A stretch of 64,000 bases of DNA, taken from the NCBI GenBank assembly GCA_945865365.1, contig CAMBDL010000008.1:1-64000 (forward strand). Direction: 5' to 3'. Positions 8,022-63,993 of this stretch are shown here, in pieces. Each line of letters starts with the position of its first letter. The stretch's first letter is position 1. The stretch is from Streptomyces griseus. GTDB lineage: Bacteria; Actinomycetota; Actinomycetes; Nanopelagicales; Nanopelagicaceae. The translations under genes were made by a program, and so were the position numbers. The notes under the pieces are model-generated. The model saw nothing but the letters and a program-made list of their open reading frames with translations. It ran no database searches and was not told the origin of the DNA.

Positions 8022-9383
8022 ATGAGAAAAAATCGCATGTTCGCTTCACTTGCAGTGATCGCCTTAGTAGCCAGCAGCCTTGTAGCTGCTGCAACTGGAG
8101 CACAAGCTGCAACGCGAACAGTAACAGTCTGGTCACCCTATAAAGGTGGAAACCTTGCAATGTGGGATGCTGCAATAAAGCGCATCGAAGCCGCAAACCC
8201 TGGTTTAGAAATTAAGTCCGTTGGAAGCATCGATATGGCTAAATCTCTTGCTGCAATTAATGCAGGTAATGGCCCAGATATCTCTGTTTCAAATGGAAAT
8301 GGAAACCTTGGTTGGTTCTGTGGAACTGGTGCATGGCAGAGTTTGAACTCCCTCATTGCTGGTAAAAACGGAATCAATATGTCAGCGACATTTAACGCTG
8401 CATCAGTTGCATCTTCAATTTCAAACTATGTGCGTTGTGCACTGCCTTTGTACTCTGAAGTCTTTGGTTTTTACTACAACAAAGATCTTTTGAGTAAGGC
8501 AGGATTTGCAAACCCACCTAAGACTACAGCTGAACTACTTACGTACTCACAAAAGCTAACAACATTTAACGCCGATGGAAGTATCAAAGCTGCAGGATTC
8601 TTGCCATGGGCTGGATACTACGGTTTTGATATGGACTCCATGTGGCTTGGACAAATGTTCGGAGCTAAGTGGTACGGCGGAAATTCTTCAGCATTCTCAA
8701 CCGACCGTAAATGGGCAGAAGCATTCAACTGGCAGAAAGATTTCATCGCTAAGGTTTATGGTGGTGGAGATTTTACTAAGGGAAGCAAGCTCCTTACTAA
8801 ATTCGTAGCAGGAAGAGGCGGAGAATGGTCAGGAACTGATCATGACTTTATCTCTGGTCGAGTCGCTATGAAGTGGGATGCAAACTGGATGTCACCAATG
8901 TTTTGTACTGGTGATGATTGGAGTATGGCGGACAAGTGCACTGCCAAGGTAAACTTTGGCATTACCGGGTTCCCTGTATCTCCATCTAATATCAGCGCTT
9001 ACGGCTCTGGTGTAATTGGTCAAGGCCAAATGGGAATCTCAAAGGGTTCAAAGAATGTAAAGGATGCATGGATCGTTATGAAGGCACTTGCTACCGATAC
9101 AAAGCTTGCGGTTGCGTGGGATGCGGCAAATGGTGCACCTTCTTCACTTCTAACAAAAGAAGCTCGTCCAGCTAACTATCCAGCTTGGTATCAACCAATC
9201 TACGATATTACTGCGCATCCAAAGACTGCCTATCACACAGTTAAAAACACTGGAGAACACTTAGAGGAATCTATGCTTCAAAATCTGATGGCTTCATGGC
9301 AAGCCGGAGATACAGCAAATATCAAGACTGCACTCGCTGATTTAGCTCAAAGAGTTAATCAGATCATTGTAAGAAATAACTAA
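8022..9383 (+). CDS. ABC transporter sugar-binding protein (extracellular, family 1)
   Basis: 453 residues from the ATG at 8022, chosen because AAGGAGA lies 5 bases upstream and a classic Sec signal peptide follows (basic start, hydrophobic core to about residue 24, cleavage near AQA-A). An earlier GTG at 7974 would spoil the signal. The mature part begins TVTVWSPYKGG, as in MalE/UgpB-type binding proteins. There is no lipobox, so the anchoring is unlike most Gram-positive relatives. Four cysteines (WFCGTG, VRCALP, FCTGDD, DKCTAK) could form two disulfides. It is the first gene of the glycoside operon; the substrate is probably a small GlcNAc-containing sugar, judged from the neighbours. Confidence 0.9.
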   Translation: MRKNRMFASLAVIALVASSLVAAATGAQAATRTVTVWSPYKGGNLAMWDAAIKRIEAANPGLEIKSVGSIDMAKSLAAINAGNGPDISVSNGNGNLGWFCGTGAWQSLNSLIAGKNGINMSATFNAASVASSISNYVRCALPLYSEVFGFYYNKDLLSKAGFANPPKTTAELLTYSQKLTTFNADGSIKAAGFLPWAGYYGFDMDSMWLGQMFGAKWYGGNSSAFSTDRKWAEAFNWQKDFIAKVYGGGDFTKGSKLLTKFVAGRGGEWSGTDHDFISGRVAMKWDANWMSPMFCTGDDWSMADKCTAKVNFGITGFPVSPSNISAYGSGVIGQGQMGISKGSKNVKDAWIVMKALATDTKLAVAWDAANGAPSSLLTKEARPANYPAWYQPIYDITAHPKTAYHTVKNTGEHLEESMLQNLMASWQAGDTANIKTALADLAQRVNQIIVRNN

Positions 9384-9394
9384 GCACCTACTTA

Positions 9395-10360
9395 ATGTCA
9401 CTAACGAGGGCACGTGCAATATCCCCCTTCAAAAAGAAGGGGGATATTGCACCACCGCGAAAGAAACTCAAAGTCCCTCGTCTCTTCATCTTCCTATGCC
9501 TATCCCCCTGGCTATTTGGAATAATCTTTTTTACTGCTTACCCAATGGTGTCAAGTTTTTATCAGTCATTTACTAAGTTCAACTTGATAGAGACGCCACA
9601 ATGGGTCGGGCTCGATAACTTTCATCGAATGTTTTTTGAAGATGATGATTTTTGGAAAGCTCTAAAAAATACTATTTGGATTTCTGCGATTAGTATTCCA
9701 TTGCGAATCTGTTTCGCAATTTTCACTGCTTGGGTTTTAACTAAACCCAAACGTGGAAGTAGTATTTACCGTACAATATTCTTTTTACCCTCCATGGTTC
9801 CAGCCGTTGCTGGAACCATGGCATTTACCTATATCTTTAATCCAGCATATGGGCCTATCAATAAAATGCTTGAAGCCATTGGAATCAAAGAACCGCCATT
9901 TTGGTTTATGGATCCAGCGTGGTCCAAGTGGGGCTTAATTCTTCTCGGACTATGGGGTATCGGCGATACCATGATTATCTTTCTTGCCGGTCTTCTCGAT
10001 GTTCCGACTTCGCTGTATGAGGCAGCTGAACTTGAAGGAGCATCTGGCTGGCAATCCTTTAGGTACATCACTTTGCCTCTGATGACACCGGTGATCTTTT
10101 TCTCAACTGTCACCGGTGTCATTGGAAGCTTTCAATACTTCACGCAGGCTTATGTTGCATCTGGTCAAGTTAATGACTATTCACACTCCATGTATTTCTA
10201 TGCCACTCACATCTATTACAGTGCATTTAAAGCCTACGAAATGGGCTATGCCTCAGCCCTTGCCTGGGTCTTGCTAGTCATCACCTTGCTGTGCACGTTA
10301 GTTATTCTAAAGACCCAAAAGCGTTGGGTTCATTATCCGAATGGATCTCTCTTTAAATGA
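9395..10360 (+). CDS. sugar ABC transporter permease (MalF/UgpA type)
   Basis: A 321-residue integral membrane protein with six predicted helices and the EAA loop (EAAELEGASGWQSF...LPLM) that docks the ATPase. It pairs with the next gene to form the import channel. It starts 11 bases after the binding-protein stop with only a weak ribosome site. A 17-bp perfect hairpin lies 19-57 bases into the gene, and two more 13-bp perfect inverted repeats occur further in. No ATPase gene is present in the locus, so a shared MsmX/MsiK-like ATPase encoded elsewhere is likely. Confidence 0.93.
   Translation: MSLTRARAISPFKKKGDIAPPRKKLKVPRLFIFLCLSPWLFGIIFFTAYPMVSSFYQSFTKFNLIETPQWVGLDNFHRMFFEDDDFWKALKNTIWISAISIPLRICFAIFTAWVLTKPKRGSSIYRTIFFLPSMVPAVAGTMAFTYIFNPAYGPINKMLEAIGIKEPPFWFMDPAWSKWGLILLGLWGIGDTMIIFLAGLLDVPTSLYEAAELEGASGWQSFRYITLPLMTPVIFFSTVTGVIGSFQYFTQAYVASGQVNDYSHSMYFYATHIYYSAFKAYEMGYASALAWVLLVITLLCTLVILKTQKRWVHYPNGSLFK
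9414..9452 (+). repeat. 17-bp perfect hairpin just inside the first permease gene
   Basis: GTGCAATATCCCCCTTC (9414-9430) and GAAGGGGGATATTGCAC (9436-9452) are exact inverted complements around an AAAAA loop. No T-run follows, so this is not a normal intrinsic terminator. Its position right after the binding-protein gene resembles stem-loops that protect the upstream message and lower permease translation (inference). Confidence 0.85.
9792..9821 (+). repeat. 13-bp perfect inverted repeat inside permease gene
   Basis: CCATGGTTCCAGC (9792-9804) and GCTGGAACCATGG (9809-9821) pair perfectly around the tetraloop CGTT. It lies wholly in coding sequence. Confidence 0.85.
9956..9970. repeat. 15-base palindrome inside permease gene
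   Basis: GGTATCG (9956-9962) and CGATACC (9964-9970) flank one central G. It could be a protein-binding site or part of a mRNA fold; no function is known. Confidence 0.6.
10082..10122 (+). repeat. 13-bp perfect inverted repeat with 15-base loop in permease gene
   Basis: ATGACACCGGTGA (10082-10094) and TCACCGGTGTCAT (10110-10122) are exact inverted complements; each arm itself contains the palindrome CACCGGTG. It lies in coding sequence near the end of the first permease gene. Confidence 0.85.
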
Positions 10361-11250
10361 GTACCTACACACCTGAAAAGCTCGCTGAGATCGATGCCCA
10401 CTCACGCAAAGCTCGACGTGCTAAAAAGTGGAATCAATTCCTGCACATGGTGGGAAGTCATTCACTTCTCATTGCTCTTTCGGCAATCTTTATCCTTCCG
10501 CTCTACTTAGTTGTCGTAATCTCTCTCATGAGTAAGGGGCAAGCAGAGACGCGCGCGTTATGGCCACATCCATTTGTATGGCATAACTACATAGATATCT
10601 TTACTGCAGTTCCATTTCTTAAATGGACACTAAATACCCTCTTTGTCTCTATCATGGGAACAATCGGAACCGTAGTTTCTAGTGTTCCACCAGCCTATGT
10701 TTTATCTCGGCTGCAGTGGAAAGGCCGTCAAACTACTTTTCTCGTTATTTTGTCGACCATGATGTTGCCTGGTCAGGTCACAATGATTCCTGTGTACATT
10801 ATTTTCTCCCGCTTACACTGGATTCCATCGTTTCTGCCACTTATCGTTCCCTCTTTCTTTGCTAGTGCATTTTCTATCTTTTTATTAAGGCAGTTCTTTA
10901 CATCAATTCCTGATGAGATTTCAGATGCCGCTCGCATTGATGGATGTAACGAGTTCAAGTTGATGATGCGGATCATCGTGCCGCTAGCAAAACCAGCGAT
11001 TTCGGCCATTGCCCTCTTTGCATTTCTCGGCTCATGGAATGATTTCTTTGGACCACTCCTCTATATTGTCGAAAATGAAGATCTTTGGACTCTAGGTATT
11101 GGATTGAACGCTTTCCAAGGAATCCACCATGTTGATACGAATATGATGATGACAGCTTCTGCGCTTTTCATGGCTCCTGTTATTATTATCTTCTTCTTCT
11201 CACAAAAAGTCTTCATCGAAGGTGTTACCCTGACTGGAGTTAAGGGCTAA
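10357..11250 (+). CDS. sugar ABC transporter permease (MalG/UgpE type)
   Basis: A 297-residue membrane protein with six predicted helices after a basic cytoplasmic N-terminus. The EAA-loop equivalent reads DAARIDGCNEFKLMMRIIVP. It overlaps the first permease by 4 bases (ATGA), the usual sign of coupled translation of the two channel halves. The next gene, the ROK regulator, starts on the base right after its stop. Confidence 0.93.
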   Translation: MSTYTPEKLAEIDAHSRKARRAKKWNQFLHMVGSHSLLIALSAIFILPLYLVVVISLMSKGQAETRALWPHPFVWHNYIDIFTAVPFLKWTLNTLFVSIMGTIGTVVSSVPPAYVLSRLQWKGRQTTFLVILSTMMLPGQVTMIPVYIIFSRLHWIPSFLPLIVPSFFASAFSIFLLRQFFTSIPDEISDAARIDGCNEFKLMMRIIVPLAKPAISAIALFAFLGSWNDFFGPLLYIVENEDLWTLGIGLNAFQGIHHVDTNMMMTASALFMAPVIIIFFFSQKVFIEGVTLTGVKG

Positions 11251-12462
11251 ATGAGTAAAAAAACTATTGCAGCTGTTCCATCACTGATGCGAGAAATCAA
11301 CGAGCGTGGAGTCCTAGATATTTTGCGCCAAAAGGGCGCACTGCATGCAGCCCAAGTTGCGCGATTAATAGGCTTATCTAAGCCAACCACAGCCGATATT
11401 TTGCGCAGTTTAATTGAGTACGGTTTAGTGCAGGAGTTCACTCCAGGTGCTGAAGATCCCCGCCGAGCTCGTTCTGTTTATGAGGCAATTAGCGATGTAA
11501 AGGTTTGTTTAGGCATTGATATCGGATCACGCTTTATTCGTGCAGCGGTTGGAAATCTCAACCAAGTGATGCTTGCTGAAAACTCAATTCCGATAAAATC
11601 ACTTGAATTAAATGATTTAGTTGCAACGATGCATACAGCTGTGGAGGAAGTATTAAAGAGTTCTGGATATAAGCTCAAGGATGTTGCTGCCATCGTTGTA
11701 GGCACCCCCGGTGTTATCAATCATGCGACTGGTGTTATCTCAATCGCTGGAACCATTGGTTCACTAGATGGAGTTAATCTTTCATCACTTATTGAAGAAG
11801 AGTTTGGCCTCAAACCTACTTTAGAAAACGACATTAATTTAGTAACAGTAGCTGAGCAGTTTGCTGGCCATGGGCATAATGTCGAAAACTTTGCCGTTTT
11901 ATCGGTTGGATCTGGTTTAGGTTCTGGCTTGGTTTTGAACGGAAAACTTTTACGTGGCCATCGTGGTGCGGCAGGTGAGATTTTTTATGTTCCTTTTGGT
12001 AATCCTTTAGATATACATAGAACTTCCACTAATCCATCTGGTGATTTAATTGCAGAGATTGCACAGTCACTTGCCAAGAAATTTCCAAAAAGTATCCTCA
12101 AGGCGCCCTATTCAACTGTTGATATTCTTAATGCCGCTAAAGCCAATGATGAGCTAGGAATAGCCGTTGTAGAAATAGAAGCCGAACGTATTGCTCTTTA
12201 CGTTGCCGCAATCGCTGCCATTACCGACGTTGAACTCGTTGTTCTATCTGGAGGAATCGGTCGAGCTGCCGGCTTTTTCTTGGATTCAATAGAGGCGCTA
12301 GTATCAAAAGTTGTCCCATTTGCGCCAAGAATTGAGATCTCCACCCTTGGTGATACCGGGATCCTTGTTGGAGCCCTCTCTATTGCCACTCGAACCGCCT
12401 GCGACATAGTTTTCACTGGAAAATCCACAGGGGTAGTTCGAAATGTGGCTGGATTAAAGTAA
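11251..12462 (+). CDS. ROK-family transcriptional regulator
   Basis: 403 residues: an N-terminal winged helix-turn-helix (about 17-58, with AAQVARLIGLSKPTTADIL) followed by a sugar-kinase-like ROK domain (LGIDIGSRF near 88, LENDINLVTVAEQF, GSGLGSGLVLNG). The cysteine zinc cluster common in ROK proteins is missing: the region after GHRGAAGEIFYVPFG has no Cys pattern. It probably senses the imported sugar or its phosphate and represses the operon through the repeats at 7932-7969 (inference). It is embedded in the operon with no gap on either side, so it would be autoregulated. Confidence 0.88.
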   Translation: MSKKTIAAVPSLMREINERGVLDILRQKGALHAAQVARLIGLSKPTTADILRSLIEYGLVQEFTPGAEDPRRARSVYEAISDVKVCLGIDIGSRFIRAAVGNLNQVMLAENSIPIKSLELNDLVATMHTAVEEVLKSSGYKLKDVAAIVVGTPGVINHATGVISIAGTIGSLDGVNLSSLIEEEFGLKPTLENDINLVTVAEQFAGHGHNVENFAVLSVGSGLGSGLVLNGKLLRGHRGAAGEIFYVPFGNPLDIHRTSTNPSGDLIAEIAQSLAKKFPKSILKAPYSTVDILNAAKANDELGIAVVEIEAERIALYVAAIAAITDVELVVLSGGIGRAAGFFLDSIEALVSKVVPFAPRIEISTLGDTGILVGALSIATRTACDIVFTGKSTGVVRNVAGLK

Positions 12463-63187: not shown

Positions 63188-63217
63188 AATGGGGTGCCGA
63201 TTTCTCGACACCCCATT
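63188..63217 (-). terminator. hairpin with GAAA loop after the rhodopsin gene
   Basis: A 13-bp stem (one T-G pair) with the tetraloop GAAA on the minus strand: AATGGGGTGTCGA against TCGGCACCCCATT. Only a broken T-rich tract follows (TTCTCTATCTTT), so it is either a leaky terminator or an mRNA-stabilising end between rhodopsin and the small membrane protein. Confidence 0.65.
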
Positions 63218-63231
63218 GTTAATCTACGTGA

Positions 63232-63993
63232 TTAGTGATCTTCCTTCATTCCTTCTGCCATTGACTTCATACGTGCGATCTTCAAAATTGTAAGACCGAA
63301 TACGCACTTAGCTAGGATGTCGGCGATTGTGTAACCAACCTGTACGCCAACAAACTGCTCAGCAGTTGCCATGCCCTCACCCATACCTAGGATGTAGGAG
63401 ATTGGGTAAACGCCCCATGTAGCAATTAGCAATAGACGCAAACGACCAACGGTCTCTGCAACGCCTGCTGGTTGATTATCAAGTGACTTACCAAGCTCTA
63501 CGAATAGTACGTAGAGGATGTACAAGAATGGAATTGTTGATAGAACACCATAAAGAACCTGTGTGTTCTGATCGCTTGAAATTTCGCCTGGGTAACCAAG
63601 TGCGATCATTGCAGCAGATGCTGGAACAAGGCGCATGATTAATGAGCGAGAAACAGATTTGGCTAGGGCAAGTACTGCAACTACTTCAACTAGAAGTAGA
63701 GGAACAGTGAGTAGCCAGTCCACATAGCGATAGGCCTCATTAAATGAACCCTGAGCACCAGAGACATTTATAGTCATATCTGCAGATGATTCATTGAATG
63801 AGTTGAAGATTCGCATGTAGTGGTAGCCAGCGATAAATGTAACCATCGACGACATGACAAGTGCATTGCGATATTTAGCTAATACACGCTGTTGTGAAAC
63901 GAGTGTGTACACCGTGCAGGCAAGCATTGACACTAGTCCAAGAGAGAAGATGTTATAGACTAGGTTCCATTGATTACTATCGAGTTTCAGCAT
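63232..63993 (-). CDS. actinorhodopsin (light-driven proton pump)
   Basis: 253 residues, seven membrane helices. Proton-pump motif in helix C: acceptor D92, T96 and donor E103 in RYVDWLLTVPLLLVE. The spectral-tuning position two residues before LVE is Leu100, predicting green absorption as in proteorhodopsin. His58 (GYHY) pairs with the acceptor; D225 and the retinal Lys229 are in ADILAKCV. Together this is the actinorhodopsin/xanthorhodopsin-like group. The start is 7 bases from the window edge; no stop codon separates it from the edge, but MLKLDSNQWNLVYN matches the usual N-terminus. Retinal synthesis genes are not in the window. Confidence 0.97.
   Translation of the reverse strand: MLKLDSNQWNLVYNIFSLGLVSMLACTVYTLVSQQRVLAKYRNALVMSSMVTFIAGYHYMRIFNSFNESSADMTINVSGAQGSFNEAYRYVDWLLTVPLLLVEVVAVLALAKSVSRSLIMRLVPASAAMIALGYPGEISSDQNTQVLYGVLSTIPFLYILYVLFVELGKSLDNQPAGVAETVGRLRLLLIATWGVYPISYILGMGEGMATAEQFVGVQVGYTIADILAKCVFGLTILKIARMKSMAEGMKEDH

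Follow-up and report, generated by a model that had tools for sequence, protein, structure and literature searches.

A conserved RNA hairpin inside the start of a sugar permease gene and its probable role in protecting the upstream binding-protein mRNA

Results

The window, meaning the whole 64,000-nucleotide stretch of DNA that was analysed, comes from an assembly of 1.41 Mb. The named relatives are mostly actinobacterial MAGs, many of lake or reservoir origin, and we infer that the host is an acI/Planktophila-type organism. The features of interest lie in and around the first of two permease genes:

8022-9383, plus strand: sugar substrate-binding protein (SBP) gene, recognised by phmmer matches to solved maltose/sugar binding proteins
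9384-9413, plus strand: 30-nt spacer between the SBP stop codon and the base of stem 1, holding the permease ATG at 9395
9395-10360, plus strand: first permease gene, MalF/UgpA-like (PF00528, Pfam 1.3e-16)
9414-9452, plus strand: stem 1, arms 9414-9430 and 9436-9452, 17 bp perfect, loop AAAAA, -31.0 kcal/mol
9792-9821, plus strand: stem 2, arms 9792-9804 and 9809-9821, 13 bp perfect, loop of 4
9956-9970: palindrome GGTATCGGCGATACC, 15 bases, 7-base arms flanking one base
10082-10122, plus strand: stem 3, arms 10082-10094 and 10110-10122, 13 bp perfect, loop of 15
10357-11250, plus strand: second permease gene, MalG/UgpE-like (PF00528, Pfam 5.4e-15)
11251-12462, same operon, 3′ of the permeases: ROK-family regulator gene

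After the SBP gene come the two permeases, the ROK regulator, a GH4 enzyme, a BadF-type ATPase/kinase and a beta-N-acetylglucosaminidase. The best phmmer match of the SBP gene product is 4r9f (5.9e-15), while a Pfam search of the gene at 8022-9383 returned no family. The first permease matches the NCBIfam UgpA/MalF models below the model cut-offs. Only 11 nt separate the SBP gene from the first permease gene, and because of this spacing the two are presumably co-transcribed. The ATG at 9395 is the sole in-frame ATG, GTG or TTG ahead of the first transmembrane stretch. The base of stem 1 begins 19 nt past this ATG, and the stem occupies codons 7-20 of the permease ORF. The junction with the second permease has no strong hairpin, its best local structure reaching -9.9 kcal/mol. 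Both a PNPase gene and an RNase E/G family gene were found in the genome.

A sequence-only reading of this DNA had reported the four repeats as a cluster within one permease gene. The repeats themselves were recovered, in the sequence and in a stem scan, at the positions it gave. Its claim that perfect stems of 13-17 bp are unlikely by chance in coding DNA was also borne out: three stems of at least 13 bp were observed, against a mean of 0.03 per synonymous-codon shuffle of the 54 window genes, and none of the 150 shuffles held two. For stems of at least 11 bp, the shuffle mean in the same genes was 0.35. Nor are such stems common in the genes of the window, as a scan of the whole 64 kb for perfect stems of at least 11 bp with loops of up to 25 found stems 1, 2 and 3 and no others. 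Stem 3 also has an alternative pairing, across 10075-10129 (20 nt at 85%).

Stem 1 was compared across 28 sequences, including the window, that were collected by protein and DNA searches; the relatives have 74-99% protein identity. A strong hairpin is present at this site in all 28, despite change in both the nucleotides and the amino acids, and the peptides encoded there vary among relatives (e.g. FKKKGDI, SPRKRGEG, RPRRKAGAI). The apex has 7-19 uninterrupted pairs, and in the clades with short stems it is lengthened by extra pairs with small bulges. Every relative has an in-frame start 5′ of the hairpin and an open frame across it. The spacing from SBP stop to hairpin is 28-32 nt in most relatives whose SBP end is present. 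When folding was compared with synonymous shuffles, z ranged from -3.1 to -6.95 (mean -5.1) in 28/28 sequences.

In alignment A1 (15 sequences), 94.5% of cells are paired and two-sided changes occur in 7 of the 17 pairs. The covariation score in this alignment was 0.347, against 0.115 in shuffles; it was reached by 0/500 shuffles, and slid controls gave 0.03-0.09. Pair types were counted by a search in which G-U and A-C oppositions carry the same score, with no bias to either. In the 28-sequence set, the stem 1 region has 372 Watson-Crick pairs, 11 G-U pairs and no A-C oppositions. An A-C opposition on the sense strand is a G-U pair on the antisense strand. GNRA loops (GCAA, GAAA, GTAA) are found on the sense strand in several clades. 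The two-sided changes, the bias toward G-U over A-C and the GNRA loops all indicate that the selected form of stem 1 is sense-strand RNA, and stem 1 is a real and strongly conserved RNA hairpin. A covariance model of stem 1 recovers the close clade, and does not reliably recover the short-stem clades.

Several other identities for stem 1 were tried and rejected. It belongs to no known RNA family in Rfam, where the best match, on the minus strand, reached 23.2 bits and the gathering score is 55.8. A mobile or repeated element was ruled out, as the stem 1 arm is single-copy in the genome, even when up to 2 mismatches are allowed. An extra outer helix, pairing about 9404-9413 with 9473-9481, forms when the window sequence is folded, but it was not accepted as part of the element because relatives do not keep the same form. 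Finally, stem 1 is not a canonical Rho-independent terminator: a terminator scan was blank at this site, and the flank CACCGCGAAA has no U-run, as is likewise the case in the relatives.

Two of the checks on the repeats that the sequence-only reading had proposed were paired changes in relatives and folding against synonymous shuffles. Both upheld stem 1 and neither upheld the other three. For folding of stem 2, the palindrome and stem 3, mean z across the 28 sequences is -0.92, -0.35 and -0.68, respectively, against -5.1 for stem 1. Outside the window, perfect or near-perfect copies of these repeats are confined to a 96%-identical sister, L012, in which stem 2 is unbroken and stem 3 differs at one pair. 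Other relatives have broken or partial versions, such as the 10-bp stem 2 retained in L019. Relatives with the same protein thus lack stems 2 and 3 and the palindrome, an observation that the sequence-only reading had itself named as counting against its proposal. Since no other relative has stems 2 and 3, the comparison speaks against any function that would maintain them. One origin shared by all four repeats is ruled out because stem 1 alone is conserved, and the idea of one functional cluster finds no support.

Stems 2 and 3 are very probably lineage-specific accidents, in which the codons of near-palindromic peptides became perfect by third-position changes in one species pair. The peptides concerned, MVPAVAGTM at stem 2 and MTPV...TGVI at stem 3, are near-palindromic in their codons, and the broken or partial stems of the relatives agree with this origin. 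Given the peptides, stems of at least 13 bp appear in 0.2% (stem 2) and 0.4% (stem 3) of synonymous draws. Plain chance is strained, however, by the lack of any shuffle with two such stems in one gene. Near-palindromes can be perfected by template-switch correction, which is a possible origin of stems 2 and 3. Together, stems 2 and 3 exceed the shuffle expectation though they are not conserved.

The genome-wide test of junctions covered permease loci only (30 PF00528 matches, with 29 genes scanned separately). In this genome, G000, hairpins of -22.2 to -32.2 kcal/mol are present at 11/11 SBP-permease junctions. The upstream gene was identified as an SBP by Pfam in eight cases and by phmmer in the window, and was judged to be one by position and sequence at L100 and L103. 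The other 18 permease starts in G000 have no hairpin below -12.4 kcal/mol; the gene 5′ of these permeases is a permease, an ATPase or another gene (one was not resolved).

Six G000 operons have an intergenic hairpin, which sits in a gap of 91-134 nt and 26-94 nt upstream of the permease start. In the five operons with abutting genes (L106, which is stem 1, and L115, L118, L121 and L108), it is within the permease ORF. In most embedded cases the hairpin begins 19-25 nt past the permease start codon. Relative to the permease start, hairpin positions span -94 to +83 across the 11 operons. Relative to the SBP stop, 10 of the 11 hairpins lie 18-52 nt downstream. The L108 hairpin is 95 nt past the SBP stop, partly G-U paired, weaker and further into the ORF. 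It is the SBP stop codon, rather than the permease start, that fixes where the hairpin lies. The hairpin sequences of different G000 operons are unrelated, and no U-tract is found 3′ of the embedded hairpins.

The complete genome G015 has hairpins of -27.6 to -32.4 kcal/mol at seven junctions, four of them intergenic, two embedded and one not placed precisely. The sole exception in G015 is junction L127, where an apparent amino-acid SBP (by position and sequence) is followed by no hairpin. The embedded hairpin of the L121 operon, whose permease starts with TTG, is kept in 30/30 orthologues (L150-L179), with compensatory changes and no A-C pairs.

In other phyla, hairpins of -18 kcal/mol or stronger occur at 8/31 junctions between an upstream gene and a permease, against 1/41 permease-end controls; this excess is only suggestive, as the upstream genes were taken by position, whether SBP or not, and GC content differs. 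Strong hairpins were also seen inside permease ORF starts in a Chloroflexi MAG (L075, -26.5 kcal/mol) and in another actinobacterial MAG (L042, -31.0 kcal/mol), suggesting that the embedded arrangement is more widespread.

Within the window, a strong 3′ hairpin is present at 2 of 55 gene ends, those of the SBP gene (-31 kcal/mol) and of a rhodopsin gene:

63188-63217, minus strand: rhodopsin 3′ hairpin, -22.2 kcal/mol, 14 nt past the stop codon, followed by pyrimidine-rich TCTCTATCTT
63232-63993, minus strand: rhodopsin gene (PF01036)

At the 16 convergent gene ends of the window no hairpin is stronger than -9.5 kcal/mol, which suggests that canonical intrinsic terminators are rare in this organism. 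The most abundant transcripts of acI actinobacteria include those of SBPs, at up to 411x the median, and that of actinorhodopsin, among the top 10 genes (PMC5574706). The two gene classes that should be most abundant are therefore the ones with strong 3′ hairpins, which, as judged from one window, fits a stabilising role.

Discussion

Stem 1 is probably a 3′ protective hairpin of the SBP mRNA, of the malE-malF type, that gives an excess of SBP. Most likely, it allows these lake bacteria to maintain far more SBP mRNA than permease mRNA. Stem 1 is stable and lies past the SBP stop codon but ahead of the main part of the permease gene, its pairing is selected, it has no U-tract, and it lies inside the downstream ORF. 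The PNPase and RNase E/G genes of the genome also fit this reading. The sequence-only reading had suggested that a stem-loop placed here would raise binding protein over permease. This part of it is well supported, both by compensatory change and by the presence of a hairpin at every SBP-permease junction of the genome. On the opposite side we count the partial terminators of Clostridia, the U-less hairpins at which mycobacteria are reported to terminate, the lack of a hairpin at L127, and the distance and G-U pairing of the hairpin at L108.

In the proposed mechanism, the SBP and permease genes would be transcribed as one mRNA, and an endonuclease would cut the permease part of the transcript. 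Exonucleases would then run back in the 3′-to-5′ direction and halt at the -31 kcal/mol hairpin. A stable SBP mRNA would remain, and binding protein would be made in excess of permease. Because the two genes nearly abut, the hairpin would have been written into the first 20 permease codons. A position 19 nt past the ATG falls outside the footprint of the initiating ribosome. With its base just beyond that footprint, the hairpin could be read through during translation, and this placing is consistent with a hairpin that is tolerated within an ORF. We infer that SBP mRNA exceeds permease mRNA in this organism, and that the hairpin works by holding off decay and not by partial termination.

The main rival to decay protection serves the same purpose by another mechanism. 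Stem 1 could be a U-less, partial internal terminator, at which polymerase stops part of the time and leaves more SBP than permease transcript. Each mechanism yields SBP excess, and the two are inseparable by sequence alone. We regard partial termination as unlikely, though it has to be taken seriously. It has been demonstrated in Ruminiclostridium for the hairpins that follow SBP genes, types very poor in U among them (PMC9045158), and the placing of 10 of the 11 G000 hairpins, 18-52 nt past the SBP stop, would suit it. For mycobacteria, which are likewise actinobacteria, "I-shaped" terminators that lack a U-tract and lie no more than 50 bp from stop codons have been reported, which makes the mechanism plausible here, but the literature disagrees on whether the mycobacterial polymerase needs a U-tract (PMC12288462). 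Against termination, the embedded hairpins lack U-tracts, stem 1 being followed by CACCGCGAAA, and the convergent operon ends of the window, where terminators would be most needed, have no such hairpins.

A third reading has stem 1 acting on translation, by slowing or gating ribosomes just past the permease start and so lowering permease synthesis. The position of most embedded hairpins, a short way past the start codon, would suit this. Against it, the hairpin is upstream of the permease start in the six intergenic operons, and its position follows the SBP stop instead of the permease start. We consider an effect of this kind very unlikely as the role of stem 1.

Least probable of all, and hardly credible, is a DNA operator, for example one for the ROK regulator of the same operon; stem 1 is a perfect 17-bp palindrome and the ROK gene is indeed downstream, but the sequence drifts freely while pairing is kept, G-U is tolerated where A-C is not, the loops are GNRA in several clades, hairpin sequences are unrelated between operons, the arm is unique in the genome, and the conserved half-site expected of a ROK operator was not found among orthologues or operons.

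The protective-hairpin reading may extend beyond this locus. It is quite possible, if somewhat short of probable, that in streamlined freshwater actinobacteria nearly all SBP genes are followed by a protective hairpin, placed at about the same distance past the stop codon each time. In operons whose intergenic space has disappeared, the hairpin would have been absorbed into the permease ORF, and the permease N-terminus would be shaped by RNA folding, not by protein function. Judged by sequence alone, a group of abundant lake bacteria probably uses RNA hairpins, at nearly every uptake operon, to fix how much binding protein is made relative to channel. The permease N-terminus also offers a clean example of RNA structure dictating part of a protein sequence. 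Stem 1 is of moderate interest for these two reasons: such hairpins are near-universal at the SBP junctions of the genome, and RNA appears to shape the permease N-terminus. The rule, a strong hairpin 18-52 nt past an SBP stop, whether intergenic or embedded, can be scanned for in other genomes and checked against existing metatranscriptomes.

Comparable arrangements are known from other bacteria. In E. coli, the malE-malF structure is intergenic and built of repeats shared across the genome; stem 1, unlike it, lies inside the permease ORF and has a genome-unique sequence. The two are alike in position, directly after the SBP gene and before the first permease. The malE-malF hairpins (REP) stabilise the SBP part of the transcript and give SBP excess, and the decay-regulated operons of E. 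coli include ABC operons with a stabilised SBP (PMC5927463). In cellulolytic Clostridia, internal terminators follow SBP genes as long, GC-rich stem-loops, some of them of low-U types (PMC9045158). Like stem 1, these lie between the SBP gene and the translocator genes, but the Clostridia hairpins are intergenic and act by termination, whereas stem 1 is coding-embedded and has no U-tract.

Stem 1 would belong to a kind already known, as coding-embedded versions occur in E. coli. There, 17/26 protective hairpins lie inside the coding sequence of the downstream gene, lack a U-tract and are conserved among relatives (PMC5927463), and stem 1 resembles them on all three counts. The E. coli hairpins were mapped experimentally and lie on average 107 nt into the gene, while the embedded ones described here are predicted from sequence and begin about 19-25 nt in. 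Unlike the E. coli set, the hairpins here are found in streamlined freshwater actinobacteria, where they occupy almost all the junctions between SBP and permease genes in a genome.
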